Source: Actinomycetota bacterium (GTDB lineage: Bacteria > Actinomycetota > Actinomycetes > Streptosporangiales > Streptosporangiaceae). From it: 49,504 nucleotides of DNA. The stretch covers positions 1 to 49,504 of the forward strand of contig JAJPIV010000106.1 of assembly GCA_021324595.1 (NCBI GenBank), given 5' to 3'. The notes beneath the pieces were generated by a model. That model was not told the origin of the DNA and did not search any database. It was given only the letters and a program-made list of their open reading frames with translations. Shown here in pieces: positions 101-18,369 of this stretch; the first letter of the stretch is position 1; every line of letters begins with the position of its first letter. The position numbers and the translations under genes were made by a program.

Positions 101-1081
101 CTAGAGGCGTCCCCACGGCAGCACGGCCGTGACCGCGACCGCGACGAACAGCAGCGTCAGGTACCCGATGGACAGATGGAACAGCCGCATCGGCGCTGCC
201 GGGGCGCCCGACGCGACCCGCCGGCGCATCCGGTGCGCCTCGCCGAGGAACCACGCGCCCAGGCCGGCCGCGCACGCGCCATAGATCCAGCCCGCGTACG
301 GGATCAGCGCCAGCGTGGTCGCCACCATCGCCCAGCTGTAGACGACGATCTTGCGCGCCACGACGTCCGGGGCCGCCACGACCGGCAGCATCGGCACGCT
401 CGCCGCGGCGTAGTCGTCCCTGAACTTGATCGCGAGCGCCCAGAAGTGCGGCGGGGTCCAGAAGAAGATCACCGCGAACAGCACGGCCGCGGGCCAGGCG
501 ACGCGGCCGGTGACCGCCGCCCAGCCGACCAGGACCGGGAAGCACCCGGCCGCGCCTCCGATCACGATGTTCGACGCCGTGCGCCGCTTCAGCCCGAGCG
601 TGTAGACGAAGACGTAGAACAGCAGCGCGGCGTCCGCCAGGGCCGCGGCCAGCCAGTTCGCCAGCAGGCCGAGCAGCACCGTGGCGGCGATCCCCAGCGC
701 CACGCCGAACACCAGCGCCTCGGCCGGGCGGATCGCCGCCCGGCCGTTCCGGGCCACGAGCGGGCGGCGCGAGGTCCTCCGCATGACCGCGTCGATGTCC
801 CGGTCGATGTAGCAGTTGATCGTGTTGGCGCTCCCCGCCGCCAGGGCGCCGCCCACGAGCGTCACCACCATCAGCCCGGCCGGCGGCAGGCCCCGCCGCG
901 CCAGCAGCATCGTGGGCAAGGTGGTGATCAGCAGCAGCTCGATGATCCGCGGCTTGGTCAGCGCGAACAGCGCCCGCGCGATCAGCGCCGGAGACCGGCG
1001 CCTGGCCAGCGACGAGTCGCGCTCACCAGAAGCGGTCTGGCCCGCCGCCTCATGGGCAAGCGCGCTCGTCGCCTGCGTCAC
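101..1081 (-). CDS. ctaB: Protoheme IX farnesyltransferase (heme O synthase)
   Basis: This enzyme adds a farnesyl group from farnesyl diphosphate to protoheme IX, giving heme O, the precursor of heme A for the adjacent oxidase. The 326-residue protein is a multi-pass membrane protein of the UbiA family. It shows the family's Asn/Asp-rich prenyl-diphosphate motif ([15 protein letters not shown]), followed by RRPL, and the motif [11 protein letters not shown] chose a GTG start at 1081 because it overlaps the TGA stop of the upstream small gene as GTGA, which suggests translational coupling. A longer reading frame upstream only adds low-complexity residues. It is the last gene of the oxidase operon. 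No heme A synthase (ctaA) is seen in the window. Confidence 0.93.
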
Positions 1082-1365
1082 TCCCCGTCCTCCGACTTGG
1101 TCCCGGCATCGGGTGAGGCCGCGGTGCCGGGCGAGGCCGCGCTCGCCCCGCCGGACGGCCCTCCCTGGCGCGGCGCCGACGTCCCGCCCGCCCACCGGCT
1201 CGCCGACAGCGCCACGTGCCCGGGGACCCGGTGCGGGCTGCGGAACCGCAGGTACAGCACGGCCGCCTGGATGATGAACATCAGCATGAAGAACGCGAAC
1301 GTCAGGTTGTATCCATGCGGGGTGTTGTCGGGGTGAATCGCCGCCGCGAGTAGCGCTCGCTGCAC
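1078..1365 (-). CDS. Small single-pass membrane protein in the oxidase operon
   Basis: A 95-residue protein with one hydrophobic segment (about residues 20-43, rich in Phe, Met, Leu and Ile) and a polar Gly/Ser/Ala/Pro-rich tail of about 45 residues. I do not recognise the family. Its place between ctaE and ctaB, with a GTGA overlap into ctaB, suggests an accessory or subunit IV-like oxidase component, or an assembly factor for heme O delivery. That role rests on position only. The short hydrophobic N-terminal half looks like real coding sequence, whereas the tail is low complexity. Confidence 0.75.
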
Positions 1366-1454: not shown

Positions 1455-2123
1455 TCAGTGGATCAGGTAGAACAGCACCCAGAACACCAGCTCGGTGAGG
1501 GCCACGAAGTTCCAGAACAGCGTCAGCGCGCTGAGCGATGCCTGGAACCGCTGCACGTCCGCCGCCTCCGCGAACGTCGGGGGCTGCTCGACGAACGAGA
1601 TCTCCGGGATCCCCCTGGCCCGCACCAGCAGGATCTCCAGCCAGATCATGGTGCCGAGCACCAGGGCGATGATCACCGGCTGCGTGCCGACGAAGACGCT
1701 CGCGAACCCGCTCGCGCCGGGCTGGAACGGCAGCACGGTCAGCTGCCAGATCTGCAGCGCGCCGCCGACGACCCCGAGCACCAGGGCCACGGTCGCCGCC
1801 CCGAGCCAGGCGCCCCGCCTGCCCGCCTTGATCTGGGTCAGCCCGGCGCTCTGCAGCAGCGCGCTGACCACGATCAGCGCCATGATCACCGCGCCCTGCC
1901 ACTGCTTGGGCCCGGTGAAGCCGGCCGGGTACCAGTCGTTGTGCGAGTTGAGCGACCGCAGGTAGAAGAAGGCGAAGATGAAGCACCCGATGGCCGAGAC
2001 CAGGATGCCGATCATCAGCCTGGTGCCGGTCCACGTCGCGTTCAGCGCCGCCTCGTGGTAGAACGCCTCTTCCTCCTGCCGCCGGCTCAGCCCGGCCGGC
2101 CCGGCAGAGGTCATCTCAGCCAT
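1455..2123 (-). CDS. ctaE: Cytochrome c oxidase subunit III
   Basis: Subunit III of the heme-copper oxidase, a 222-residue membrane protein with about five transmembrane segments and no redox centre. The order of helices, the short loop FYLRSLNSHNDWYP and the C-terminal LFWNFVALTELVFWVLFYLIH region fit the COX3 family. The start at 2123 is supported by GGAGG eleven to fifteen bases upstream, inside the end of ctaD, and by a gap of only four bases to the ctaD stop. It is followed by a small membrane gene and ctaB in the same operon. The N-terminal 20 residues are polar, and the protein has the short actinobacterial length. Confidence 0.9.
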   Translation of the reverse strand: MAEMTSAGPAGLSRRQEEEAFYHEAALNATWTGTRLMIGILVSAIGCFIFAFFYLRSLNSHNDWYPAGFTGPKQWQGAVIMALIVVSALLQSAGLTQIKAGRRGAWLGAATVALVLGVVGGALQIWQLTVLPFQPGASGFASVFVGTQPVIIALVLGTMIWLEILLVRARGIPEISFVEQPPTFAEAADVQRFQASLSALTLFWNFVALTELVFWVLFYLIH

Positions 2124-2127
2124 GTCG

Positions 2128-4098
2128 TCACGCCTCCGCTCGTGCGGTCTCGGAACCGGAGAAGGCCGCCGCGAGCACGCCGACCGGCGGGTTCAGGTCG
2201 GCGACCGGCTCGCTGCCCTCCGAGCCGTACTCGTACGGCCCGGACAGCACGACCGGCACGTGCTCGAAGTTGTAGGCCGGCGGCGGCGACGGGATCTGCC
2301 ACTCCAGGCCGCGCGACTCCCACGGGTTCCCGGTCTCGCGCACCCTGGTGACCACGGTCGACCAGACGAAGTTGATGACGAAGAGCAGGATCGAGAACCC
2401 GAGGACGTACGAGGAGATCGAGACCCAGTCGTTGAGCGTCTGCAGCCGGAGCGCGTACTCGAACACGCGCCTCGGCTGGCCCAGCCAGCCGACCGCGAAC
2501 AGCGGCATGAACGTCGAGTTGAACCCGAGGAACATCAGCCAGAAGTGCCAGTAGCCGAGCTTCTCGTTGAGCTTGATGCCCATCATCTTCGGCAGCCAGT
2601 AGTAGCAGCCGCCCATGAAGGCGAAGATGAGCCCGCCCATGATCGTGTAGTGGAAGTGGGCCATCACGAAGAAGCTTCCGTGCTCGGTGACGTCCGCCGG
2701 GGCGTCGGAGTTGAACACGCCGGAGATGCCGCCGATGAGGAAGTTGAAGAAGAACGCGAAGCAGAACAGCATCGGCACCGTGAACCTGATCTTGGCCTTC
2801 CACAGGGTCCCCATGCCGACCAGGAAGATGAACCCGGTGGGAATCGAGATCATCTCCGTCGTGAGCATGTAGAGCGGGCGCATGTCCGGGTTGATGCCGC
2901 TGTCGAACAGGTGGTGCTGCCAGACGAAGAAGCTGAGCAGCGTCACCCCGATCATGCCCGCGGCGGCCACCTTGTAGCCGAAGAGCGGCTTGCGGGTGAA
3001 CACCGGGAGCAGCTCGCAGACGATGCCGAACCCGGGCAGGGCCAGGATGTAGACCTCGGGATGGCCGAAGAACCAGAACACGTCCTCCCACAGGTACGTG
3101 CTCCCGCCGAGCTGGTCGGTGAAGAACGCGGTCTGCACCGTCCGGTCGGTGAGCAGCATGTACATGCCGCCGGACAGGACCGGCGCGGCCAGGGCCATCA
3201 TCACGGCGGTGCCGAGGATGCCCCAGACGAACATGGGGAGCCTGCTCCACCGCATGCCCGGCGCCCGGTAGCAGATGACCGTGACCAGGATGTTGAACCC
3301 GGCCAGCGTCATCGAGATGCCCATCAGGCCGAACGCGAACGCGTAGGCGTCGGCGCCCGAGGTGTCCTGGATCGACAGCGTGGGGTAACCGGTCCAGCCC
3401 ATGTGGAAGCCGCCGAGCAGCAGGGCCGACAGCAGGATCATGAACGCCGCCGGCGTCAGCCAGAACGACAGGGCCTCCAGGCGGGGGTAGGCCACCCGCT
3501 TGGACCCGATCATGATCGGGATCAGGTAGTTGCCGAACGGGCCGAGGATGACCGAGGTCATCAGCATCATCATCATCGTGCCGTGCTCGCCCACGATCTC
3601 GATGTACGTGGCCGAGCTGAACACGTGATGCACCGGGGACAGCAGCTCGGTCCTGATGCCCATGGCGAGCAGCCCGGCGGTGCAGAAGTAGATGATCATG
3701 CCGACCAGGTACTGGATCCCCACGACCTTGTGATCGAGGTGGAACCTGAAGTACTGGGCCAGGCCGCCCGGGCCGTTCCCGTTCTCCGCTTCGGCCAGGC
3801 GCCGCCCGGCCATCTGCTTGAACAGGTCGTTGAAGACCCCGAGGCCGGCCAGCCAGCCGATCACCATGAACAGGTAGCCCAGCACGATCGCGGTGTCGTT
3901 CTGGTCCGACGTGCCGACCTGCTGGTAGCCGGAGGCGATCAGGTTGCCGAGCCAGTGGCCGAAGGCGTATCCGATCACCGCGCCGATCAGCCCGGTGTGG
4001 ATCGCCGGGCGCATCCACCACGGGCGGCGCGCGGCGCCGCCGGCCGGCTGCCCTCCGCCGGGGTGCTGGGTGGTGCCAGGTTCTGTCTCGATGGCCAT
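2128..4098 (-). CDS. ctaD: Heme-copper oxidase subunit I, divergent aa3 type
   Basis: Catalytic subunit that reduces O2 at a heme a3-CuB site; 656 residues. Every metal ligand is visible: His172 (heme a), His346 in GHPEVY with Glu348 and Tyr350, His395-His396 (CuB), and His481 and His483 in AHFHY. By comparison with the Paracoccus enzyme, the D-channel Asp in the IGxxDxAFP motif is Arg201 (IGSKRVAYP). The K-channel Lys in PTGxK is Ile424 (IPTGFIF). The Asp after the Mg-site His is Gly473 (EHGSFF). The Glu of HPEVY is kept. There is also an N-terminal extension of about 90 residues with an extra hydrophobic stretch. I chose ATG 4098 because AGAGGTG lies just upstream; an earlier ATG at 4119 is possible. 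It is therefore a real but unusual A-type oxidase. Confidence 0.93.
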   Translation of the reverse strand: MAIETEPGTTQHPGGGQPAGGAARRPWWMRPAIHTGLIGAVIGYAFGHWLGNLIASGYQQVGTSDQNDTAIVLGYLFMVIGWLAGLGVFNDLFKQMAGRRLAEAENGNGPGGLAQYFRFHLDHKVVGIQYLVGMIIYFCTAGLLAMGIRTELLSPVHHVFSSATYIEIVGEHGTMMMMLMTSVILGPFGNYLIPIMIGSKRVAYPRLEALSFWLTPAAFMILLSALLLGGFHMGWTGYPTLSIQDTSGADAYAFAFGLMGISMTLAGFNILVTVICYRAPGMRWSRLPMFVWGILGTAVMMALAAPVLSGGMYMLLTDRTVQTAFFTDQLGGSTYLWEDVFWFFGHPEVYILALPGFGIVCELLPVFTRKPLFGYKVAAAGMIGVTLLSFFVWQHHLFDSGINPDMRPLYMLTTEMISIPTGFIFLVGMGTLWKAKIRFTVPMLFCFAFFFNFLIGGISGVFNSDAPADVTEHGSFFVMAHFHYTIMGGLIFAFMGGCYYWLPKMMGIKLNEKLGYWHFWLMFLGFNSTFMPLFAVGWLGQPRRVFEYALRLQTLNDWVSISSYVLGFSILLFVINFVWSTVVTRVRETGNPWESRGLEWQIPSPPPAYNFEHVPVVLSGPYEYGSEGSEPVADLNPPVGVLAAAFSGSETARAEA

Positions 4099-4155: not shown

Positions 4156-5142
4156 TCATGGCTGCGACGGGTCCTGCGGCGGGTAGTAGCCGCCGCCGGC
4201 CCCGGTCAGGCCGAGCTTCTGCAGCACCGGGCCGAGGTGCGCGATCTCGGTCGGGTCGTAGGTCGTGCTGTAGGGCGGCAGCAGCTTCGTGACGTCGGCG
4301 AGGGCCACGCTCGTCGAGCTGGCCCAGGCCTGGAACTGCGGGACGGTGACGACCTTGCCGTAGTTGAACATCGCGCCGTGCCACAGGCCGCACAGCTCCG
4401 CGCAGCGGACCGTGACGCGCCCGAGGTGCTGGGTCTTGGTGTAGGCGACGTTGTCCACCCCGGGGTTCGCGTCGGCCTTCACCCCGAGCTGGTAGGCCCA
4501 GAAGCTGTGGATGACGTCGATCGAGGTCACGTCGAACTGGATCATCGTGTTCACCGGGAGGACCAGCTCGGTGGTCTCGAAGCCGCCGAGTCCCGGGTAG
4601 CGGTAGGTGAACCGCCACTGCTGGCCGATCACCTGCACGACCAGGACATGCCCGGGAGCCCAGGGGCGTTGCTGGGCCGCCGCGGTGAGCTCGGCGCCCG
4701 GCGGGTTCCAGATCGGCGACGGGCCCTCGCCGCCCCCGGCGCCGTAGGGCACGATCAGCTCGTAGGTGCCGAAGGCCGCCAGGCTGAGCACCATCACCGA
4801 GGTGACCGTGATCCACAGCGCCTGGATCCGCGAGTGGCCGTGCAGCGGCGGGCCGTCGGCGTCGTCACCCGGGCGGCGGCGCCACACCACGATCGCGTAC
4901 GTGAAGTAGACGAGCACCAGGACCAGCACCGGCGCCGACATCGCGATCATCACGTTGTTGTCGAACTGCTGGCCCTGCGCGGCCGAGCCCAGCCGGCCCG
5001 GGGGGATGTGCGGGCCGAGCACGAACCACAGCACCAGGTCGGCGGCGAGGGCGAGCACGATCCAGATCAGGAAGATCCGCAGCCCGTGGTTCGGGCCGCC
5101 CGCCTTGGCGGCCGGGGTCGCTGCCTGGGTTTCGGCGGCCAT
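4156..5142 (-). CDS. ctaC: Cytochrome c oxidase subunit II with CuA site
   Basis: Subunit II takes electrons from a cytochrome c or other donor through a binuclear CuA centre and passes them to subunit I. The 328-residue protein has two transmembrane segments (about residues 20-42 and 60-82), a third hydrophobic stretch near 100-120, and a C-terminal cupredoxin domain. The complete CuA motif is CAELCGLWHGAM, with Cys247, Cys251, His255 and Met258; the upstream His is in DVIHSFW. There is no fused cytochrome c domain. The ATG start shares one base with the TGA of the upstream cupredoxin-like gene (TGATG), which fixes the start and implies coupled translation. Confidence 0.94.
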   Translation of the reverse strand: MAAETQAATPAAKAGGPNHGLRIFLIWIVLALAADLVLWFVLGPHIPPGRLGSAAQGQQFDNNVMIAMSAPVLVLVLVYFTYAIVVWRRRPGDDADGPPLHGHSRIQALWITVTSVMVLSLAAFGTYELIVPYGAGGGEGPSPIWNPPGAELTAAAQQRPWAPGHVLVVQVIGQQWRFTYRYPGLGGFETTELVLPVNTMIQFDVTSIDVIHSFWAYQLGVKADANPGVDNVAYTKTQHLGRVTVRCAELCGLWHGAMFNYGKVVTVPQFQAWASSTSVALADVTKLLPPYSTTYDPTEIAHLGPVLQKLGLTGAGGGYYPPQDPSQP

Positions 5143-5828
5143 CAGCCCGCCACCTCCATCTCGCCAGTCATGTAACCGATGGTCTGCATCGGCCCGCCGA
5201 AGCCGTCCAGGAACCCCAGGCCGCACGGGATGCGGCACTGCCAGAAGTACGATCCAGGCGTCGCCGGGGCCTTGAAGCTGAACGTCACCGTGGTGTGCGG
5301 GCCGGAGGTGCACGGCGACGTCCCGCACAGGTTGTTGTTGGCCGCGAGCGTCGTCGGCGAGGCGATCGGCACGTTCAGGCCAATGCCCGGGATGGAGAAC
5401 GTGTGCGCCACCGAGCACTCGCCCCAGGAGTTGAGCACCTGCGTGGGCTTGCCGTTCACGTACTCGACGTTGCCGACCGTGCCGCTGATCTTCCCCCAGA
5501 ACGGGTTCCGCAGCGGCGTGCAGCCGTCATAGCCGAGCACGGTCACGTCGATCATGCTGCCCGCGGGCACCTTGAACAGCGTGGTGTGCACCCACTGATG
5601 AGAGGCGGGGTCCTGGATGAAGTAGGACACCCAGTCGGGCCGGTCCGACACCGTCGTCTGCGGGGCCTCCTGCAGGACGATGTGGACCGGCTGGCCCGGC
5701 GCCGCCTGCGAGGTGAAGTCCACCGTCGGCGGCCCGGCCAGCAGGTAATGGATGACGACGAAGATCGCGCCACCGACCACGGCGAGGAACGCCACGAGCA
5801 GGGTTCCCACGCGGACCGGCAGGGACAT
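5142..5828 (-). CDS. Membrane-anchored cupredoxin-like protein with a degenerate CuA-type motif
   Basis: A 228-residue protein with an N-terminal anchor (about residues 7-30) and an extracytoplasmic beta-rich domain. The C-terminal motif CRIPCGLGF (Cys198, Cys202) sits where CuA proteins have CxExCxxxHxxM, and His142 in VAHTF matches the upstream copper ligand. The second CuA His is Phe206, and the Met at the expected spacing is missing; the nearest is Met214. Four further Cys (103, 138, 168, 173) could form disulfides. It is the first gene of the operon and overlaps ctaC. Likely roles are a mononuclear copper electron carrier, a copper donor for CuA, or a structural paralogue of subunit II. 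GAGGTG upstream supports the ATG start. Confidence 0.8.
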   Translation of the reverse strand: MSLPVRVGTLLVAFLAVVGGAIFVVIHYLLAGPPTVDFTSQAAPGQPVHIVLQEAPQTTVSDRPDWVSYFIQDPASHQWVHTTLFKVPAGSMIDVTVLGYDGCTPLRNPFWGKISGTVGNVEYVNGKPTQVLNSWGECSVAHTFSIPGIGLNVPIASPTTLAANNNLCGTSPCTSGPHTTVTFSFKAPATPGSYFWQCRIPCGLGFLDGFGGPMQTIGYMTGEMEVAG

Positions 5829-7195: not shown

Positions 7196-7297
7196 ATGGC
7201 CAGGGGCAAGGCGCGCCCGCCGGCGAGGCGCCCCCGGCTGCTCTACCCGCCTGAATCTGGCCGCACGCCGCGGCGTGGGACGACAGGGGCGCGATGA
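7196..7297 (+). CDS. Predicted 33-codon leader ORF, leaderless and coupled to the response regulator
   Basis: An ATG seven bases downstream of the predicted -10 box opens a 33-codon frame, and its TGA overlaps the ATG of the response regulator gene (ATGA). The peptide is rich in Arg and Pro and begins MARGKARPP. No ribosome-binding site could precede the ATG if transcription starts where predicted, so translation would be leaderless. The response regulator itself lacks a good Shine-Dalgarno sequence, so ribosomes finishing the leader could re-initiate there. Chance cannot be excluded at this GC content, but promoter spacing and the four-base overlap agree. Confidence 0.45.
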   Translation: MARGKARPPARRPRLLYPPESGRTPRRGTTGAR

Positions 7298-8028
7298 CTG
7301 CGGCACGTGAGGGCCACCGGCACCTCGGGTCTCCGCCTGCCGGTCCCCGGCCCGAGTCACGCGGCGGCACGCCGGCGAGGATCCTGCTCATCGACGACGA
7401 GCCGCAGATCAGCGGCTTCGTGAGCCGTGCGCTGGAGAACGAGGGGTACCTGGCGGACAGCGCCTGCGACGCTGCGCATGGCGTGGAGCTGGCCTCGAGC
7501 GGCCAGTACGACCTGGTGATCCTCGACCTCATCCTGCCCGACCTCGACGGCCGGGCAGTGCTCGCCGAGATCCTGCGGGAGCGGCCGGATCAGGCGGTGC
7601 TCGTGCTGTCCTGCAGCTGCGACGTCGGCACCAAGGTCGAGTGCCTCAACCTCGGCGCGCGGGACTACCTCACCAAGCCGTTCTCGCTCGCGGAGCTGCT
7701 GGCGAGGGTCAGGGCGCGGCTGCGTGACAGCACGATGCACAGCGAGGTGATCCGGTTCGGCGACCTCAGCCTCGACGCGGGGCGGCTGGTCGCCGACAGC
7801 GGAGCGGGGCCTGTCGCGCTGACGCGGCTCGAGTTCCTGTGCCTGCGCGCGCTGATCGAGCGCGGCGGCGACCCGGTGACCAAGAGCGAGCTGCTCGCCT
7901 CGGTCTGGGGGATCGACTTCGACCCCGGGTCCAACATCGTCGATGTCTGCATCAGGCGCCTGCGAGCCAAGCTCGGGTTCGGGCTGATAGAGACGGTGCG
8001 CGGTGAGGGATACCGGCTCGCCTCCTGA
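7294..8028 (+). CDS. OmpR-family response regulator
   Basis: A DNA-binding response regulator of 244 residues. The receiver domain (about residues 28-140) has the acidic pair Asp34-Asp35, the phosphorylation site Asp78 in VILDLILPD, and Lys128 in LTKPF. A winged-helix trans_reg_C domain occupies about residues 147-243, with RLEFLCLRAL and the terminal VRGEGYRL typical of the family. The first 27 residues are an unstructured, family-atypical extension, so the true start may be slightly internal. Its 3' end overlaps the histidine kinase gene by 26 bases. It probably controls its own operon or the nearby oxidase genes, which is inferred from position. Confidence 0.93.
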   Translation: MTAAREGHRHLGSPPAGPRPESRGGTPARILLIDDEPQISGFVSRALENEGYLADSACDAAHGVELASSGQYDLVILDLILPDLDGRAVLAEILRERPDQAVLVLSCSCDVGTKVECLNLGARDYLTKPFSLAELLARVRARLRDSTMHSEVIRFGDLSLDAGRLVADSGAGPVALTRLEFLCLRALIERGGDPVTKSELLASVWGIDFDPGSNIVDVCIRRLRAKLGFGLIETVRGEGYRLAS

Positions 8029-9358
8029 GCCCCGCCCGCGGCCGGAGCGGCAGGGATCCTCCCGGCCCAGCGCCATCGGGGCCGCTGCCGGGAATGATCC
8101 AGCCCCCGGCGAGGCGGGCAGGCCGGCGGGCCTGGGGACGCTCGCGCGCGAACCAGAGTTCGCCTGGCTCGTGCTCTGGCTGGTCTGCATGGTCGCGATC
8201 GTGGCGTTCCCGGCATGGCAGGTCGTCCCCGCCGACACGATCTGGGCGAGCCTCGCGCTGCTCTACGGGTTCTGGCTCTGGCCGAGCCATCGCGGCCTCG
8301 CCGCCGCCGCGCCGGCGGCCCTGGTGATCGCCGCCGCCGCGTACGACGAGTTCGTGGTCACGCACCCCGGCCTGGCCGACTCCGCGGCAGGGTACCTCCC
8401 GCTCCTCGCCATGCTGCTCGTCACGATGACCTGGCAGGCCAACCGGAAGCTGACCGCGAGGGAGCGGGCCGACGTGGCGGCCGAGGCGCGGCGGCTGATC
8501 GTGGTCCAGCGGCAGTTCCTCCAGGACGCCGCGCACCAGCTGCGCACGCCGATCACGATCGCGCTCGGCCACGCCGAGCTGCTGGCCGGCGAGCTGCCGG
8601 CATCGCGGCGCGGCGACATGCGCGTGGTGGTCGGGGAGCTGCAGCGGCTCAAGGCGCTGAGCGACCGGCTGCTGCTGGTGGCGGCCTCGGAGAACCCCGG
8701 GTTCCTGCGGCGCGAGCCCGCCGACCTGGACGAGATCGCGGCAGAGCTGATCCTGCGGTGGCAGCCGGTCGCGCCGCGTCGCTGGCGCCTGGGCCCTCTC
8801 GCCCCGGTGCGCGCGTCGGTGGACGCCGAGCGCCTCGGGATGGCGCTCGACGCCCTCGTGGAGAACGCGGTGCGCCACACGACGGCGGGCGATGAGATCG
8901 CGATCTCCGTTCGGGGACCGGATGAGGGCGGCCGCGCGGCGGTGACGGTGACCGACACCGGGGAAGGGATCGCCGCGGATGACCTTCCCAGGATCTTCGA
9001 CCGCTTCCACACGGCGGCCGGCGGCACCGCCCGCGGGACCGGCCTGGGGCTCGCCCTCGTCCAGGCCATCGCCCGCGGGCACGACGGCGAGGTGACCGTG
9101 CGCAGCGCGCCGGGCACGGGCAGCCGGTTCTCGCTGCTGATTCCCGCGCTCGGTGCTCCCGGCGTGCCCGCCCGCGAGCCGAGCCCGCTCGATCCGCCGA
9201 TCCGGGAGGGCGGCCACGTGGCCCCGGGAGCACGGCGCCGGGTTCCGGCGCTGCCCGCCCGGCGGCGAGCCCTGGCGCTTGGGCACCGCGGCAGGCGAAC
9301 ATGCCGTGAACTACAGTCGTGGGCGGTGAGCCTTCCTCGCCGGAACGGGGCGCCCTGA
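8003..9358 (+). CDS. Membrane sensor histidine kinase
   Basis: A 451-residue kinase partnering the upstream regulator. About four transmembrane segments (residues 53-145) with short loops form the sensor part, which suggests sensing inside or close to the membrane. The DHp helix has the phospho-acceptor His178 in AAHQLRTP. The HATPase domain shows the N box (ENAVRHT), G1 (DTGEGI) and G2 (GTGLGLAL). The start is a GTG inside the end of the regulator gene. The last 55 residues after the ATPase core are Arg/Pro-rich and unlike the family. The stop shares a base with the next ATG (TGATG). The signal is unknown; redox, oxygen or copper would fit the oxidase context. Confidence 0.92.
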   Translation: MRDTGSPPEPRPRPERQGSSRPSAIGAAAGNDPAPGEAGRPAGLGTLAREPEFAWLVLWLVCMVAIVAFPAWQVVPADTIWASLALLYGFWLWPSHRGLAAAAPAALVIAAAAYDEFVVTHPGLADSAAGYLPLLAMLLVTMTWQANRKLTARERADVAAEARRLIVVQRQFLQDAAHQLRTPITIALGHAELLAGELPASRRGDMRVVVGELQRLKALSDRLLLVAASENPGFLRREPADLDEIAAELILRWQPVAPRRWRLGPLAPVRASVDAERLGMALDALVENAVRHTTAGDEIAISVRGPDEGGRAAVTVTDTGEGIAADDLPRIFDRFHTAAGGTARGTGLGLALVQAIARGHDGEVTVRSAPGTGSRFSLLIPALGAPGVPAREPSPLDPPIREGGHVAPGARRRVPALPARRRALALGHRGRRTCRELQSWAVSLPRRNGAP

Positions 9359-9987
9359 TGCAGGCACGCACAGCCGGCCCGCCGCACATCCCGCTGCGGT
9401 CCCGCGGCTGGCCGGTCCGCAGGACCCCGCGGTGGGTGATCGGCGCGGGCCTGGTGCTGCTGGCCATCGGCGTCAGCGTCGGCCTGTCGCACCGGCCCAC
9501 CACGGGCCAGCGCGCCGCCGACCTGAGCACGTTCCTCGGCGCGCTCAACTCCGACGTCGAGTCATGCGCGGGCGGCGTGCGCGAGTCGCTCTACGTGCTG
9601 CGCGCGATCGACACCGGGGCCAGCCACGACGTGCCGACGGCGATCGACGTCGCGGCGACCGGCGCGGCGAACTGCTCGCCGGCCAACAACGAGCTGCTCG
9701 CCAACCTGACCGGCGAGCAGGTGCCCGAGTCGCTCGCCAGCTTCCACCTCGCCCCGGCGGTCACCGCGCTGATCGACTGGGCGGCACCCGACGCGCAGCG
9801 GGTGATGTCGGACATCACCTTGATCCTCCAGGACCGCGGCCGCCCCGCGCGGGAGGCGGCCGAGCGCGCGGCGCTCCGCGCCGACCTGCGCAGGCTCGAC
9901 GCCCAGCGGCGGATCTTCTACTCGATCCTGCGCCCCGCGATCAGGGCCCTGTCCCCCAGGACCGGGCCGCCCGTGCTTCCCGGGTAG
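9358..9987 (+). CDS. Anchored protein of unknown function in the two-component operon
   Basis: A 209-residue protein with a basic N-terminus (PLRSRGWPVRRTPR), one transmembrane helix (about residues 29-47) and a helical, probably extracytoplasmic domain with two Cys (in SCAGG and NCSPA). I do not recognise the family. It starts at an ATG overlapping the kinase stop as TGATG and is followed by ctaG after 33 bases, so it belongs to the same transcript. It may be an accessory sensor for the kinase or a partner of CtaG in metal delivery; neither has motif support. Confidence 0.8.
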   Translation: MQARTAGPPHIPLRSRGWPVRRTPRWVIGAGLVLLAIGVSVGLSHRPTTGQRAADLSTFLGALNSDVESCAGGVRESLYVLRAIDTGASHDVPTAIDVAATGAANCSPANNELLANLTGEQVPESLASFHLAPAVTALIDWAAPDAQRVMSDITLILQDRGRPAREAAERAALRADLRRLDAQRRIFYSILRPAIRALSPRTGPPVLPG

Positions 9988-10020: not shown

Positions 10021-10914
10021 ATGCGTTACCTGACCCAGGGCTGGTCGTTCGACCCGTTCATCGTCCTGGTCCTTGTGATCACGGCCTGGCACGAGGTGGG
10101 CCTGGCCCGGCTGGCCCGCAGGTCGCGGCCCGAGCGGACGTCGCAGCGCCGGCGGCGGTCGGCCTGGTTCTACGCCGGCCTGGCGGTCCTGGTGATCGCG
10201 GTGGCGTCCCCGATCGACTACTGGGCGGACCGCTACTTCATCGTCCACATGATCCAGCACCTCCTGCTGATGTTCGCCGCTCCCGTGCTGATCGTCGCCG
10301 GCGCGCCCTGGCAGCCGCTGCTCGACGGGCTGCCCGGCAGGCTCGGCAAGGACGCGACCCGGCAGGTGATGACCGGCCGCTGGGCGACGCCGCTGCGGGC
10401 GGCCGGGAGCCTGCTGCTCAAGCCGTGGGTGCCGGTCGCGCTGTTCAACGCGGTGATGGTGGTCTGGCACCTGCCCGGGCCCTTCGATCTCGCGGCCCGC
10501 AATGGGCTGGTCCACATCTGGCTGATGCACGGCAGCTTCTTCGCGGCGGGCGTGCTGTTCTGGATCCAGTTCGTCCCGTCCCCGCCGCTGCGGATCCAGA
10601 TGTCGCGGCCGGCCCAGATGGCCGCCCTGCTGCTCACCAACATCGAGATGTGGGTGCTCGCGATGGCGATGAGCATGTTCACGACGGTCTCCTGGTACTC
10701 GGTCTACGACCACGTCCCCGGGGTGACGCTGCCCCCGCTCGCCGACCAGCAGATCGGCGCCGCGATCTTGTGGGTGTGCGGGGACTTCTGGGCGATCCCG
10801 GCGATGGTCTACGTGGTGCGGCGCCTCATCGCCGAGGACGGGAACGTCGGAGCGGCCGTCGACCGCATCCTCGGCCGTCGCTCCCGCCCCTACCAGTGGG
10901 CGGGCAGGCGGTAA
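10021..10914 (+). CDS. ctaG: Cytochrome c oxidase assembly protein, CtaG (caa3) family
   Basis: An integral membrane protein of 297 residues from the caa3_CtaG family, which supports maturation of the CuA/CuB centres in Bacillus- and actinobacterial-type oxidases. It has about seven transmembrane helices and carries the family's conserved His pair in HMIQHLLLMFAAP, further histidines in WHLPGPFDL and LMHGSFF, and the C-terminal DQQIGAAILW. GAGGAACA directly precedes the ATG. It is the last gene of the two-component operon and lies 4 kb from the oxidase structural genes, which suggests that the regulatory system adjusts oxidase assembly. A second, histidine-poor homologue is at 31124-31939. 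Confidence 0.92.
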   Translation: MRYLTQGWSFDPFIVLVLVITAWHEVGLARLARRSRPERTSQRRRRSAWFYAGLAVLVIAVASPIDYWADRYFIVHMIQHLLLMFAAPVLIVAGAPWQPLLDGLPGRLGKDATRQVMTGRWATPLRAAGSLLLKPWVPVALFNAVMVVWHLPGPFDLAARNGLVHIWLMHGSFFAAGVLFWIQFVPSPPLRIQMSRPAQMAALLLTNIEMWVLAMAMSMFTTVSWYSVYDHVPGVTLPPLADQQIGAAILWVCGDFWAIPAMVYVVRRLIAEDGNVGAAVDRILGRRSRPYQWAGRR

Positions 10915-13661: not shown

Positions 13662-14834
13662 CTACGGCCCGCCCGCCCGCTCCCGGAGCGCGGCGACCAG
13701 CGCCGGGAGCACCTCGTGCAGGTCGCCGATGACCGCGTAGTCGGCCTTCGCCACGATCGGGGCGCCCGGGTCGGTGTTCACCGCGATGATCGTCTTGGCG
13801 CCCTGGCAGCCCGCCATGTGCTGGATGGCCCCGCTTATCCCGCAGGCCAGGTAGACATCCGGCGTGATCTTGGTGCCGGTCTGCCCCACCTGCTGGTTGT
13901 GGGGCCGCCATCCCTGGCTGGTCACCACGCGGGAGACGCCGACCGCGCCGCCGAGCAGGCTGGCGAGCTCCTCCAGGACCGCGAAGCCCTCCGGCCCGCC
14001 GACGCCCCGCCCGCCGCCCACCACCACCCGCGCGGTGGCGAGCGAGACGCCGTCTCGCCGCTGCTCCGACTCGCTGGCCCGGACGGCCAGATCGGCGGCC
14101 TCCACCGCCTGCTCGACCACCTGGACCCGCACCGACTCCGCGGTCCCCGGCGCCGGGGCCGCCTCCGGCTGGGCGCCGGGCCCCCGCGACGGGCCGGCCC
14201 CCCGAACGGCACCCGCGGGCCGGACGGCGTCGGCTGGCGGAACGGCGTCCGCAGGCGGAACGGCGTCCGCTGGCGGAACGGCGTCGGCTGGCGGAACGGC
14301 GTCCGCAGGCGGAACGGCGTCCGCAGGCGGAACGGCGTCCGCGGCGACGGTCAGCAGGGCCGGCGAGGCGCGCAGGACCGCGTCCTCCAGCAGGCTGCCC
14401 GCCCAGCGCTGCCTGGTCAGCCGGAGCTCCCCCGGCCCGGCGCGCGTCACCGCCACGCAGTTGGCCGCCACCGGCAGCCCCGTGATCGCCCCGGCGTGGG
14501 CGAGCACCTCGCTGCCCCGGTCGGTCGCGGCCGCCATGACCGCGCTGACCGGGCCGGCGCCGGCCCCGTCCGGCAGCCGGGCCGACAGGTGAACGAGCGC
14601 CCGCGCCCACGCGCGCGGAGCGTAGCCGCCGGGCCCGGCGGGGGCCAGCGCGTAGCCGAGCCTGGTCCCTCGGGCCGCCAGGTCGCCGGGCGGGACCGCC
14701 CCGGGCGGGCCGAACCACGCCGCCGCGAGCGCCTCGCCCGACCGCTCCGCCAGGCCGGCCGCCATGCCGAGCGCGCGCAGCGACGCCTCGGACGCGCCGC
14801 CCGGCTCGGTCTCGATCAGGCACAGCACGGTCAT
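13662..14834 (-). CDS. etfA: Electron transfer flavoprotein alpha subunit with a repeat-expanded linker
   Basis: FAD-binding subunit of ETF, which carries electrons from flavoprotein dehydrogenases to the quinone pool. The 390-residue protein is longer than the usual 310-330 because of a central linker of repeated PPADAV units (about residues 165-205) between the N-terminal domain and the FAD domain. The FAD domain shows GGGRGVGGPE, SQGWRPHNQQVGQTG, ACGISGAIQH and AVNTDPGAPI. The start ATG overlaps the etfB stop as ATGA, so the two subunits are made in step. It probably serves the dimethylglycine/sarcosine-type dehydrogenase encoded just upstream on the same strand. Confidence 0.93.
   Translation of the reverse strand: MTVLCLIETEPGGASEASLRALGMAAGLAERSGEALAAAWFGPPGAVPPGDLAARGTRLGYALAPAGPGGYAPRAWARALVHLSARLPDGAGAGPVSAVMAAATDRGSEVLAHAGAITGLPVAANCVAVTRAGPGELRLTRQRWAGSLLEDAVLRASPALLTVAADAVPPADAVPPADAVPPADAVPPADAVPPADAVPPADAVRPAGAVRGAGPSRGPGAQPEAAPAPGTAESVRVQVVEQAVEAADLAVRASESEQRRDGVSLATARVVVGGGRGVGGPEGFAVLEELASLLGGAVGVSRVVTSQGWRPHNQQVGQTGTKITPDVYLACGISGAIQHMAGCQGAKTIIAVNTDPGAPIVAKADYAVIGDLHEVLPALVAALRERAGGP
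14223..14343 (-). repeat. Tandem 18-bp repeat inside etfA
   Basis: Six full copies and a partial copy of an 18-base unit (plus strand AACGGCGTCCGCAGGCGG with few changes) encode repeated PPADAV hexapeptides in the linker between the two ETF-alpha domains. The reading frame is kept. Confidence 0.9.
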
Positions 14835-15601
14835 CGCAGCACTCCGAGGTCGTCGAGGACCCGCACCAGCGCGGGCACGGCGCCGGCGCCGGAACCCAGC
14901 ACGCGCGCCCGCGACGCCGGGGCGCGCGGGACCCGCAGGCGCTCCGTCCGCAATCCCTCCGCCGGCGCCGGGCCCGGGTCGAGCACCTCGACGCTCGCCC
15001 GCCTGGCGCGCAGCCGCCCGGGGAGCGACGGGTAGCGGGGCAGGTTGATCCCCTCCTTGACGCTGACCACCGCCGGCAGCGGCAGCTCGAAGCTCTCCAG
15101 CGACCCCCGGTACTCCCGCCCGGCGACCAGCCGCCCGGCCGCGCCGGCACCCGGCGTGACCTCCAGCCGCTTGATGCCGGTCACGCAGGGCAGGCCGAGC
15201 GCGTGGGCGACGCGCACCGGGACCTGGTACCCGCCGGTGTCGGCCGCCTCGTTGCCGAACAGCAGCAGGTCGAACCCCCGGTCACGGACGGCGGCGGTGA
15301 TGGCCGCGGCGGTGGCCACCGGGCCCCGCTCGGTGCCGTCGGTCGCCAGCAGCACCGCCCGCCCCGCGCCGAGCGCGAGCATGTCCCTCAGCTGCTGCTC
15401 GGCCTCCGGCGGGCCCAGGGTGAGCACCGTGACGGTCCCCCCGTGCCGCTCGGTGATCCGCACCGCCTCCTCGACCGCGCATTCCTCGTGCGGGCTCACG
15501 GTGAAACCGGACATCGACGTGTCGACCGCCTGCCCGTCCGGGGTCAGCGCGATCGCACCGCCGACCATGGGCACCCGCTTGACGCAGACGCAGACCTCCA
15601 C
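14831..15601 (-). CDS. etfB: Electron transfer flavoprotein beta subunit
   Basis: AMP-binding subunit of the ETF heterodimer, 256 residues, complete and of normal length. It begins VCVCVKRVP and contains NPHE-like SPHEECAVEEAV, the signature stretch VTGIKRLEV, and LPAVVSVKEGINLPRYPSLPG. The start is a GTG with a strong purine-rich ribosome-binding site (GGGGGAGG). It follows the large FAD dehydrogenase after 72 bases and overlaps etfA by four bases, forming a dehydrogenase-etfB-etfA transcript. This links oxidation of a methylated amine to the respiratory chain. Confidence 0.93.
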   Translation of the reverse strand: MEVCVCVKRVPMVGGAIALTPDGQAVDTSMSGFTVSPHEECAVEEAVRITERHGGTVTVLTLGPPEAEQQLRDMLALGAGRAVLLATDGTERGPVATAAAITAAVRDRGFDLLLFGNEAADTGGYQVPVRVAHALGLPCVTGIKRLEVTPGAGAAGRLVAGREYRGSLESFELPLPAVVSVKEGINLPRYPSLPGRLRARRASVEVLDPGPAPAEGLRTERLRVPRAPASRARVLGSGAGAVPALVRVLDDLGVLR

Positions 15602-15673
15602 CTCGTCCCCCTCCCCCGGGCGAGTTCGCGCACCGGGCGGCCGGCGCGGACGGCCCGTTCACCCTGACCCCGG

Positions 15674-18271
15674 TCAGGCCCTGACCCGCTCGTTGCCCGG
15701 GTCGAACAGCGGGCGCGCGCCGACCACCGCGACGGTGACCGGGTACCGCTCGCCCAGGTACTCCACGGCGAGCCGGTTCCCCTCGCGCGCCTGCCCGGCG
15801 GGCAGGTAGGCGAGGAGGATGTGCTTGCCCACCGACGGGCCCGATCCGGCGCTGGTCACATAGGAGGTCCGGCCGCGCGCGTCGGTGAGCACCTGGCCGT
15901 CGGGGCCGAGGACCGGCTCTCCCCCGAGCATGTACCGCGGCTCACCGGAGGCGGAGCGATGATCGTCGACGGTGAGCGTGCACAGCACCGCCGCCGGGGG
16001 GCGCTCACGCTGGGCCAGGTAGGCGGCCTTGCCGATGAAGTCGCCGCTCTTGACGGTCGGCCGGGCCAGGCCGGCCTCGACCAGGTTGTACTCGGCGGTC
16101 AGCTCGTTGCCGAAGGCGCGGTACCCCTTCTCCAGCCGCCCGGTGGTTCCGTAGACGCCGATGCCCACCGGGACCAGCCCGGAGGGCTGGCCGGCCTCCC
16201 AGAGCGCGTCCCAGAGCGCCGCGCCCTGCTCGGCCGGGACGTACAGCTCCCAGCCGAGCTCGCCGACATAGGAGATCCGGGAGGCGAGCACGGTGATCCC
16301 CGCGGCCTCGATGGGACGGCAGGTGCCGAACGGGAATCCCTGGCCGGACACGTCGTCGGCGGTCAGCCGGGCGAGGATCTCCCGGGCCTTCGGCCCCCAC
16401 AGGCCGAGGGTGGTCCACGCCGAGGTCACGTCCGCGAGGGTGGCGGTGCCGTCGTCCGGCAGGTGATCGGAGATCCACTTGGCGTCCATCATCCCGGTGG
16501 CGCCGCCGGTGACGACCCGGAACGCGTGCGCGCCAAGCCGCATGATCGTCAGGTCGCCCCGGAACCCGCCGGCCTCGTCGAGCAGCGACGTGTAGACGAC
16601 CCGGCCCGGCCGCACGTCCATCTGGGCGACCGCGAGCCGCTGGACCGCGTCGAGCGCGCCGGGCCCGGTGATGTCGAGCACGGCGAACGCGGACAGGTCC
16701 ACCAGCCCGGCGTTGTCCCGCATCGCCAGGTGCTCGGCGTTGATGATCGGGCTCCACCAGCGCGACTCCCACTCGCCGGGCCGCCGCATCAGCCGTTCCT
16801 CGTACCGCTCGAGCAGGGCGGCGTTCGACTCGTACCAGTGCGGCCGCTCCCAGCCCGCGGTCTCGAAGAACACCGCGCCGAGGGCCCGCTCGCGGTCGTA
16901 GGCCGGCCCGCGGCGCAGCGGGCGGCCGGATTCCCACTGCTCGGCCGGGTGGACGATGCCGTACATCTTGTTGAAGCCCTCGCGGGCGCGCGCGGTCACG
17001 TGCGCCGTGGTCCGCTGGTGCGGGTAGAAGCGCGACACGTCGGCCTCGTGGATGTCGATCTCCGGGACCCCGCCGGTCATCCACTCGGCGGCCGCCCGGC
17101 CGCAGCCGGGCCCCTCCTTGATCCAGCTGGCGGCGACCGACCACAGGCCCGCGACCTCGGGCGTCTCCCCGATCACCGGGTGCCCGTCCGGCGTCATCGA
17201 GATCAGGCCGTTGATCGCGTACCGGATCCCGGCCCGCTCGTCGCCGAGCAGCCCGGGCATGAGCTCCAGCGCCTGGGCCAGCTGGGGGTCGAAGTCCTCG
17301 GCGGTGAACGGCAGCTCGGTGGGCGACAGCGCGGCCTGCTCGATCGACGGGATCGCGTCCGGGTCGACGATGATCGGCCGGTGCGCGTAGGAGCCCACCT
17401 CCATGTCGCCGCCGTGCTGCCGCTCGTACATGTTCGCGTCCACGTCGCGGACGATCGGGTAGCTGATCTCTCCCGGGGACTTCTCGAACAGCTCGATCGG
17501 GCCGACGCTGATCATCTGGTGGACCACCGGGGTGAGCGGGATCCGGGCGCCGGCCATCCGGGCCAGCCGCGGCGACCACACCCCGCAGCAGATCGCGACC
17601 AGGTCCGTCTCGATGTCACCGCGGGTGGTGCGCACCCCGGTGACCCGGCCGCCCGTCCTGCCGTCGAAGCGGCCCGCCCGGCTGGCGTCCGGGTCGGTCA
17701 CGATCCCGGTGATCTCGGCGCCCGCCAGGACGGTCAGCGCGCCGGAGCCCTCCGCCTGCTCGCGCATGAGCGTCCCGGCGCGCAGCGAGTCGACCACCCC
17801 GACGGTCGGGAAGTACGCGCCGCCGAGGATCACGCGCTCGTCCAGGTAGGGCACGAGCGCCCGGACCTGCGCCGGGCTCAGCAGCTCGGCGGGGATCTGC
17901 CAGGCCCTGGCCTGGGTGCAGCGCCGCCGCAGCTCGGTCATCCGCTCGGGGGTCCGGGCGACCTCGATCCCGCCGGACTCGGTGAACACCCCGAGCTGCT
18001 TGTACTGCTCGGTGCTGTCCCGGGTCAGCTCCATCATCATCTTGCTGTACTCGATCGGGAAGATGAAGTTGGAGGCGTGCCCGGTAGAGCCGCCCGGGTT
18101 CGGCATCGGGCCCTTGTCGACCAGCACCAGGTCCCGCCAGCCCAGCCTGGCCAGGTGGTACGCCAGGCTGTTGCCGACGATCCCCGCGCCGATGATCACG
18201 GCGCGCGCCCGCGCGGGAGCGCCGGGTCCCGCCCCGGCCGCCGCTGCCGCCTGCCCCACGATGTCGCTCAT
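15674..18271 (-). CDS. Dimethylglycine/sarcosine dehydrogenase-like FAD oxidoreductase with GcvT domain
   Basis: An 865-residue two-part enzyme. The N-terminal DAO-type FAD domain has the dinucleotide motif GAGIVG (residues 28-33) and STGHASN with His65, the usual site of covalent FAD attachment in dimethylglycine and sarcosine dehydrogenases. A FAO_M-type middle part follows. The C-terminal half is a GcvT aminomethyltransferase-like domain that would pass the released one-carbon unit to tetrahydrofolate. The family oxidises N-methyl groups and hands electrons to ETF, whose genes follow directly. ATG 18271 has GAGGA upstream. The exact substrate (dimethylglycine, sarcosine or another amine) is uncertain. 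A GntR gene diverges from it. Confidence 0.88.
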   Translation of the reverse strand: MSDIVGQAAAAAGAGPGAPARARAVIIGAGIVGNSLAYHLARLGWRDLVLVDKGPMPNPGGSTGHASNFIFPIEYSKMMMELTRDSTEQYKQLGVFTESGGIEVARTPERMTELRRRCTQARAWQIPAELLSPAQVRALVPYLDERVILGGAYFPTVGVVDSLRAGTLMREQAEGSGALTVLAGAEITGIVTDPDASRAGRFDGRTGGRVTGVRTTRGDIETDLVAICCGVWSPRLARMAGARIPLTPVVHQMISVGPIELFEKSPGEISYPIVRDVDANMYERQHGGDMEVGSYAHRPIIVDPDAIPSIEQAALSPTELPFTAEDFDPQLAQALELMPGLLGDERAGIRYAINGLISMTPDGHPVIGETPEVAGLWSVAASWIKEGPGCGRAAAEWMTGGVPEIDIHEADVSRFYPHQRTTAHVTARAREGFNKMYGIVHPAEQWESGRPLRRGPAYDRERALGAVFFETAGWERPHWYESNAALLERYEERLMRRPGEWESRWWSPIINAEHLAMRDNAGLVDLSAFAVLDITGPGALDAVQRLAVAQMDVRPGRVVYTSLLDEAGGFRGDLTIMRLGAHAFRVVTGGATGMMDAKWISDHLPDDGTATLADVTSAWTTLGLWGPKAREILARLTADDVSGQGFPFGTCRPIEAAGITVLASRISYVGELGWELYVPAEQGAALWDALWEAGQPSGLVPVGIGVYGTTGRLEKGYRAFGNELTAEYNLVEAGLARPTVKSGDFIGKAAYLAQRERPPAAVLCTLTVDDHRSASGEPRYMLGGEPVLGPDGQVLTDARGRTSYVTSAGSGPSVGKHILLAYLPAGQAREGNRLAVEYLGERYPVTVAVVGARPLFDPGNERVRA

Positions 18272-18313
18272 GCCGCGGTCCTCGTCGTAGGCACACTGAC
18301 TCGTCGCGGGCAT

Positions 18314-18338
18314 ACTGATATGCAAGTGATATATCAGT
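18314..18338. promoter_or_regulatory. Inverted repeat between the dehydrogenase and its GntR regulator (candidate operator)
   Basis: A perfect 8-bp inverted repeat, ACTGATAT-N9-ATATCAGT, is the most AT-rich spot in the 98-base gap between the two divergent genes. It is well placed to be the operator of the GntR protein and to block both promoters. Confidence 0.6.
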
Positions 18339-18369
18339 GCCCTGGCCAGACTAGATCGCACGGAGCGCC

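Follow-up and report, generated by a model that had tools for sequence, protein, structure and literature searches.

A cupredoxin-associated cytochrome oxidase subfamily of Actinomycetota with altered D- and K-channel signatures

The window, the whole 49,504-nucleotide stretch analysed here from a genome of the Actinomycetota (Streptosporangiaceae), encodes subunit I (COX1) of a family A cytochrome oxidase in which the entry of the D channel, its asparagine gate and the lysine of the K channel are all replaced, and the heme and CuB ligands are retained. To judge from the alignments, the loss of both channel signatures is a fixed trait of the whole subfamily to which the protein belongs. We favoured, with a probability of about 0.5, the reading that the window protein serves as catalytic subunit in an acidophile-associated family A oxidase which is fed high-potential electrons by a cupredoxin, lacks the K path, has a D path restarted at Glu208, and carries out little or no proton pumping; its gene cassette would be the actinobacterial counterpart, in form, of the aa3 oxidase of the Acidithiobacillus rus operon.

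Sites are named in what we take to be the R. sphaeroides numbering. D132, N139, K362, E101 and H96 are named as channel residues in PMC10341450. The gene and its sites are as follows.

2128..4098, minus strand: subunit I (COX1), 656 amino acids (PF00115, E 1.3e-124)
3841..4002, minus strand: N-terminal extension, codons 33-86, with two predicted helices (33-55 and 68-86; structure model)
3496..3498, minus strand: Arg201, at the position of the D-channel entry Asp (R. sphaeroides D132; alignments)
3475..3477, minus strand: Glu208, at the asparagine-gate position N139 (Glu in 72/73 clade sequences)
3055..3057, minus strand: Glu348, equivalent to E286, kept (72/72)
3049..3051, minus strand: Tyr350, equivalent to Y288, the cross-link Tyr, kept (72/72)
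2854..2856, minus strand: Glu415, at position 353, a marker of the K-less group (alignment)
2827..2829, minus strand: Ile424, at the position of the K-channel Lys (K362; I 58, L 11, V 2 of 71)
2743..2745, minus strand: Asn452, at position 390, a marker of the K-less group (alignment)
2704..2706, minus strand: Asp465, at position 403, a marker of the K-less group (alignment)
2677..2679, minus strand: Gly474, at the position of the Mg-site Asp (D412; alignments)

The COX1 gene was intact, with an ATG at 4098 and a stop codon at 2128-2130 on the minus strand, and its product was matched by six NCBIfam oxidase models, all under the curated cut-off (539.9 bits against 670.75 for CtaD_CoxA). The nearest solved structures by sequence were those of the mycobacterial aa3 subunit I (6hwh, E 5.9e-114), and the predicted structure resembled the family A subunit I fold (Foldseek E 4e-24); the mean predicted confidence (pLDDT) of this model was 72.6, and at the level of residues it was used for helices and fold only. 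The window enzyme shared with the canonical A1 oxidases (6hwh, 6adq) the fold, the Glu of the HPEVY motif, the Tyr of helix VI, the heme a, heme a3 and CuB histidines and a CuA-bearing subunit II, but differed from them, at about 40% identity, in D132, N139, K362, E101 of subunit II and the Mg-site Asp, so that neither the Asp132 entry with its Asn139 gate nor the Lys362/Glu101 pair of type A1 was found. The polar analogues of the K path known from family B (ba3) were not found in the window protein, which has Ile at K362 and Val at S365, and its best-matching families were of A type.

A preliminary description of the stretch, made from its letters, had placed the D-channel entry Asp at Arg201 and the K-channel Lys at Ile424, and had listed Glu348, Tyr350 and the heme and copper histidines as kept. 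Residue counting and alignment bore out the first two assignments, and alignment confirmed the others; the alignment with 6hwh was ungapped around the channel sites and restored neither the acid nor the Lys. The Mg-site Asp had been equated with Gly473, which was wrong by one, since residue 473 is His, the retained Mg ligand H411, and Gly474 replaces D412. The statement that neither canonical channel is present holds for the K path and for the acid at the D entry, but puts the D path too simply, since an acid stands at the gate. This polar residue near the D channel, Glu208 at N139, had escaped notice, as had the changes at S365 (Val427), S299 (Cys361, a site variable across the clade) and E101 of subunit II (Gln107). 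The N-terminal extension, described as adding a hydrophobic segment, contained two predicted helices rather than one, with pLDDT of 89-94 in the helix cores and 65-74 at their inner ends (in blocks of ten). The match to 6hwh and 6adq started only at residue 109-121, and the model contained the two extra N-terminal helices of the published COX1 clade of iron oxidisers named for them (the 2TM clade).

The same replacements were found throughout the relatives of the window protein. Scanning genome contigs gave 84 candidate stretches and from these 75 loci. Of these, 71, at 56-84% identity, constitute the clade, and the remaining four (L100, L103, L105, L106) are relatives at 33-40%. Residues were counted over 82 rows (73 distinct) from the scan loci, the loci of 40 related genomes and the window, and a row gapped at a given column did not enter the count for it; alignments A1 and A2 held 49 and 55 locus sequences, near-duplicates having been removed beforehand. 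Position D132 was Arg in 60, Lys in 10 and Gly in 2 (R/K in 70/72), and the two Gly sequences (L084, L107) had an Arg one residue earlier. The single sequence without Glu at N139 had Ser (Conexibacter L049). No Lys was found at K362 (0/71), S365 was Val in 68 and Thr in 3, and D412 was Gly in 70 and Leu in one (L097, in which the reading is apparently shifted at this place). The upper D path was kept, with Asn at N207 in 72/72, Asn 65, Gln 5 and Gly 2 at N121, and Ser 62, Ala 7 and Gly 4 at S142. Canonical actinobacterial oxidases carried D, N, K and D at D132, N139, K362 and D412 in 19/19.

Sampling 396 genomes from the phylum gave 15 with a match whose E value was 1e-140 or lower, which included, besides the window, six further clade members (L174-L179, 54-60% identity). 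All six combined R/K at D132 with Glu at N139, and their K362 site was I, L, V or Thr. The named carriers were Acidithrix ferrooxidans, Ferrithrix thermotolerans, a Ferrimicrobium metagenome-assembled genome (MAG), Acidiferrimicrobium sp., Conexibacter sp. DBS9H8 and Trebonia kvetii; the remaining carriers were MAGs from palsa, bog and elsewhere. Acidithrix, Ferrithrix and Ferrimicrobium are acidophiles that oxidise iron. Trebonia kvetii (L104/L125, L133) and the MAGs JOPF054 (L038, L039) and JOPF032 (L043, L048) each carried the oxidase of the window clade twice.

The K path was also altered in subunit II, which is encoded with subunit I in a cassette of four genes.

4156..5142, minus strand: subunit II with a complete CuA motif (PF00116, E 1.3e-14; CoxB model, 118.9 bits, below the cut-off of 147.7)
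4822..4824, minus strand: Gln107 of subunit II, at the position of the K-channel entry Glu (E101; alignment)
5142..5828, minus strand: membrane-anchored cupredoxin (CUP, AcoP/rusticyanin-like), 228 amino acids (profile, model and fold comparisons)
1455..2123, minus strand: subunit III-like membrane protein with no Pfam or NCBIfam match (cassette position; homologues in 61/71 clade loci)

The CuA residues were invariant in the 30-row alignment of subunit II (A3, with 29 of the 54 listed subunit II sequences). The E101 site was Gln in 60, Ser in 7 and Ala in one of the 68 clade rows, with no Glu; outside the clade, Glu was found in three relatives, all bearing K362, and Val in L103. This entry Glu was kept in the K362-bearing 2TM relatives (L185, L186, L187 and L190, 4/4) and in five canonical rows, and was missing from all ten K-less 2TM relatives aligned. 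Read from these residues, the K path is broken at its mouth in subunit II as well and is hydrophobic at K362. The CUP gene lay directly upstream of the subunit II gene and overlapped it. CUP was found in 66/71 clade loci, the contigs of the other five ending just upstream, and the order CUP, subunit II, subunit I, subunit III on one strand was seen at all 56 clade loci (of 71) where the four genes were found.

In the model of CUP (pLDDT 86.3), a single helix at the N terminus was followed by a beta domain, and the invariant residues of the family included H142, C198, C202 and M214. No Pfam family matched more than 2/56 members. Searched as a profile against the PDB, CUP gave the AcoP of Acidithiobacillus first (E 0.0051 over 35 positions, then 0.010 and 0.011, the next match being at 0.3), and as a single sequence it gave AcoP third in the list at E 0.49, so that the kinship was seen by profile only. 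Foldseek placed rusticyanin at the top with E 3.3e-4, but with a target TM-score of 0.45 and a root-mean-square deviation of 9.9, and VIA-align tied a NirK domain, nitrosocyanin and rusticyanin (Z 9.5-9.0, rusticyanin 9.2), with no AcoP among its 50 rows. The predicted fold of CUP is that of a cupredoxin, and in the model it appears generic rather than pointing to one kind.

Double channel loss had been taken in the preliminary description for a pattern unknown in types A1 and A2, but it is not limited to the window protein: three aa3 oxidases of the Acidithiobacillus rus-operon type (L170, L192, L193) also lack both D132 and K362. They resemble the window protein in an extension of two-helix length, in the Glu353 and Asp403 markers, and in the retention of E286 and Y288 in all three, and the L170 locus has the order cupredoxin, subunit II, subunit I and a subunit III-like gene, with a CtaB-like frame downstream. 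They differ in overall identity (35-38%), in D132 (T/Q/T) and N139 (L/M/A) against R/K and Glu in the clade, in having Asn rather than Gly at D412, and in a subunit II whose CuA motif lacks its Glu. Contig G258:C91, reached by searching 274 genomes from the class of G047, encodes AcoP (E 3.4e-80 against the solved structure), subunit II, subunit I, subunit III (by position), CtaB (by eye) and a PF06525 (SoxE/rusticyanin-type) protein in this order; its subunit I has the extension, Tyr at N121, Thr at D132, Leu at N139, Val at K362 and Asn at D412, and keeps E286 and Y288. L192 and L193 have Gln and Thr at D132, Met and Ala at N139, and Phe and Met at K362. AcoP belongs to an Fe(II) chain, is associated with the oxidase and has a potential of +566 mV at pH 5 (PMC4059628); it is membrane-anchored and is reduced via cytochrome c4 (PMC5982212).

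The window protein shares with the 2TM clade (PMC8239418) its family A membership, the two extra N-terminal helices and the link to iron oxidisers; in the parts of that paper covered here, neither an actinobacterial subfamily nor a Glu at N139 is described, and one of its scenarios counts seven losses of the K channel within family A. Among the listings and passages of the open-access literature that were searched, no account was found of a natural Glu at N139 or of the actinobacterial subfamily. The 2TM clade of iron-oxidiser COX1 itself is already in print.

The extension-bearing relatives differed in how much of the two channels they retained. D132, N139, K362 and D412 were all present in L185, L186, L187 and L190, and L180-L182 had no K362 but kept D412; these seven have Ala at E286. 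In L001, L189, L183 and L184, K362 was lost and D412 was Gly as in the window protein, with the same Glu353, Asn390 and Asp403 and a CUP-like neighbour 32-39% identical to CUP, but D132 and N139 were intact, E286 was kept, and identity to the window protein was 39-43%. One of these, L001, is encoded on contig C161 of the genome that also contains the window. All the aligned members of the series keep Tyr288. The residue table of the relatives left out seven new loci (L135, L137-L139, L152, L171 and L172). Taken together, these sequences suggest stages, with the K channel lost while the D channel was kept and the D channel altered afterwards.

Trees of 62, 48 and 37 rows (the last with 11 rows fewer than the second) were rooted at the midpoint. 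The 62-row tree put the window type and the COX1 of iron-oxidising proteobacteria in one group of 34 rows (100/100). In the 48-row tree, the window clade was sister to the K-less group of L001, L189, L183 and L184 (100/98) and the Acidithiobacillus type joined the group of L180-L182 (97/91), the two types thus falling into two K-less groups. Loss of the D channel took two changes on the 37-row tree, and forcing the D-less groups together was 23.3 log units worse, with a p value of 0.082 in the approximately unbiased test (p-AU). The best tree therefore points to two D losses in separate lineages, and one shared loss was not rejected at this p-AU.

Other patterns of loss were seen outside these groups. 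Some proteobacterial oxidases have lost K362 and kept D132 (e.g. L142, L148). Ten oxidases of the G047 class (L142, L143, L144, L148, L153, L154, L161, L164, L167, L168) have Met, Ile or Leu at K362 and Val or Ile at T359 and keep D132 and N139, and represent a separate type of K loss. A 984-residue COX1 frame of the Betaproteobacteria MAG BP_17 (L103/L123) has Ala at D132, Thr at N139, Ala at N207 and Gln at K362 with E286 kept, another double loss outside the window clade. L132 (Acidiferrimicrobium, G043) and L134 (Conexibacter, G044), which paired in the 62-row tree, have HPVVY in place of HPEVY, Glu at K362, Ala/Thr at D132 and Thr/Ala at N139.

The window genome is a MAG of 4.09 Mb in 168 contigs (96.93% complete), and its nearest named relatives are actinobacterial MAGs, many titled Streptosporangiaceae and some bearing palsa or bog in the title. 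By analogy with its relatives, the organism is probably acid-loving and may oxidise iron. A match to the RuBisCO large subunit was found in the window genome (460 bits) and in Acidithrix, Ferrithrix, G048 and G258, that is, in 5/9 genomes. In the Ferrimicrobium MAG, the subunit I found was of the window-clade type only, and the spectra of whole Acidimicrobium and Ferrimicrobium cells fed with Fe(II) were dominated by a-type cytochrome (PMC5143472). The canonical aa3 subunit I of the window genome, with D, N and K intact, is encoded on contig G000:C24 (L172, minus strand), where at about 35190-35200 its gene is split into two frames near a run of C, which is either an assembly error or a real break.

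Gene content, residues, the subfamily, synteny and the staged relatives were observed, and from them we infer the electron donor, the proton route and the pumping stoichiometry. High-potential electrons, from Fe(II) in the named iron oxidisers, would pass through the membrane cupredoxin to CuA, heme a and the heme a3-CuB site. With the K path gone in both subunits, the acid of the D path would have moved from the mouth, where D132 became Arg or Lys, to the gate, where N139 became Glu208, and the chemical protons would enter from the cytoplasm at Glu208 and travel via N190/N269 to Glu348. A modified D path of this kind is plausible, since Glu is found at the gate in nearly every clade sequence and N121, N207, S142 and E286 are kept. 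The enzyme would then move about one charge per electron, with chemical protons from inside and electrons from outside, and a non-pumping or weakly pumping enzyme is favoured because of the gate acid and because of the small driving force from Fe(II) to O2 against a large pH gradient.

The energy sum, which used standard potentials with assumed Fe potentials of 0.77 and 0.65 V and a membrane potential of +10 or -20 mV, gave 1.14-1.99 charges that each electron could pay for with the outside at pH 1.5-3 and the inside at 6.5 (12 cases). At low pH, Fe(II) would thus not sustain a full pump, or would barely do so, because one charge per electron is already spent by the chemical protons taken from inside. 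The gate acid has parallels among laboratory mutants. N98D, N98T and N98S (equivalent to N139) kept O2 activity and lost pumping, and K319M/N98D (printed there as K316M) restored the PR to F step (PMC12901375). N139D raised the pKa of Glu286 (PMC5040959).

A further-reaching proposal, which we put forward tentatively and which is somewhat less probable than not, is a "geared-down", non-pumping family A oxidase: in iron-oxidising acidophiles the K channel would have been lost first and the D mouth then dismantled independently in actinobacteria and Acidithiobacillus, with the gate acid fixed in the actinobacterial line, leaving a single proton path and about one charge per electron, approximately the most that Fe(II) pays at low pH. 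In this proposal the gate acid would correspond in nature to two laboratory constructs, the decoupling mutation N139D and the K362M/N139D double mutant.

Several observations weigh against the favoured reading or parts of it. Within the energy sum, the value of 1.99 was reached at pH 3 with the low Fe potential, where a second charge is almost affordable, and at pH 4 the sum gave 1.26-2.41 charges per electron (4 cases), where it can be affordable. The D132N/N139D double mutant of R. sphaeroides is reportedly re-coupled, so a gate acid without a mouth acid need not uncouple the enzyme. Glu208 is not indispensable, as shown by the Ser of Conexibacter L049. Acidithrix and Ferrithrix each have a second subunit I with D132, N139 and K362, which could take the electrons from iron. 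The PF00016 match was absent from Trebonia kvetii, the carrier of two copies of this oxidase, and from three further carriers of the clade (G043, G044 and G046), and no PF06525 (SoxE/rusticyanin-type) match was found in the window genome, 3/9 genomes having one. Against two separate D losses, the 62-row tree placed its single Acidithiobacillus-type row beside the window clade with weak support (91/60).

The conserved upper D path can also be read as that of a fully coupled pump with a re-sited entry, in which Glu208 replaces Asp132 and all chemical and pumped protons take one path, as is reported for the D132N/N139D mutant. The invariance of N207 and E286, the retention of N121 in 65/72 and the stronger conservation of Glu208 than of Arg201 argue for it, and we regard it as rather unlikely. 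A cation at the mouth of a channel is not usual for proton entry. Less than two charges per electron was left by Fe(II) in all 12 cases at pH 1.5-3 (1.99 in one), and single N139D/T/S mutants lose pumping (PMC12901375).

Arg201 and Glu208 might instead form a salt bridge that closes the D path, the chemical protons coming by another route, perhaps a network of Glu415, Asn452 and Asp465; were this route to open to the acidic outside, less than one charge per electron would be coupled. By bovine numbering, the three residues lie presumably on the outer half of the membrane. Among 161 distinct sequences, counted without rows that had a gap in any of nine columns, Glu353, Asn390 and Asp403 occurred together in 90, all without K362, and none of the three occurred in the 54 K362-bearing sequences; of the 17 other K-less sequences, 14 had none, two had only the Asp and one had the Glu and the Asp. 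This association fits the proposed route, but it may reflect very few events on the tree, and the K-less relatives with an intact D channel carry the same trio, which is therefore not a substitute for the D path. The Acidithiobacillus type, with Leu, Met or Ala at N139, has a D mouth that looks sealed, and Thermus ba3 has Arg at the D132 position and a D path called inactive in Table 2 of PMC12901375, a paper that argues for another pumping route, the H-pathway. On balance, closure by a salt bridge seems to us distinctly improbable.

An enzyme that does not use O2, such as an NO reductase on the same fold, might be suggested by the loss of several channel residues and the Mg-site Asp, but is very improbable and was rejected on account of the invariant cross-link Tyr350 of helix VI, the HPEVY Glu, the heme and CuB histidines and the CuA site of subunit II, and CtaB and CtaG are encoded nearby. 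The probability of an ordinary pumping aa3 misread through a gap or a MAG error is negligible, as the alignment was ungapped at the channel sites and the pattern was fixed across 73 distinct sequences, which came from numerous assemblies, isolates included.

Which residues set the pumping of oxidases is a long-standing question that has been approached mostly with point mutants. The relatives described above offer a natural graded series, from complete D and K channels through K lost with D kept to a D mouth changed with a gate acid and a D mouth sealed, in which the role of D132, N139 and K362 in pumping stoichiometry can be tested. The series could also show whether too small an energy yield from Fe(II) led acidophilic iron oxidisers to abandon pumping, and the window oxidase may conserve energy in a way unlike ordinary cytochrome oxidases.

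The cassette is flanked by genes for a small protein, for assembly factors and for a regulatory pair.

1078..1365, minus strand: small, possibly subunit IV-like protein, 95 amino acids, no Pfam match (open reading frame list, Pfam, locus comparison)
101..1090, minus strand: CtaB, heme o synthase (NF003349, 420 bits, above the cut-off of 246)
7294..9358, plus strand: response regulator (7294-8028) and histidine kinase (8003-9358), divergent from the cassette (Pfam)
10021..10914, plus strand: CtaG-type CuB assembly factor (PF09678, E 4.5e-47)

CtaB is encoded in the gene run of the cassette, and the gene for CtaG lies some 4 kb past that for the cupredoxin. A similar response regulator was found in 27/101 and a similar kinase in 20/101 loci searched; the pair may possibly regulate the cassette, by redox or iron control. 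The Rfam scan of the window gave no match. Beside CtaG, a 222-amino-acid protein (9319-9987, plus strand) without a Pfam or NCBIfam match has relatives in 32/101 loci searched, some of them just 25-30% identical. At 13662-18361 on the minus strand, genes for electron transfer flavoprotein alpha and beta lie beside a gene for an FAD oxidoreductase/aminomethyltransferase that is dimethylglycine-dehydrogenase-like.

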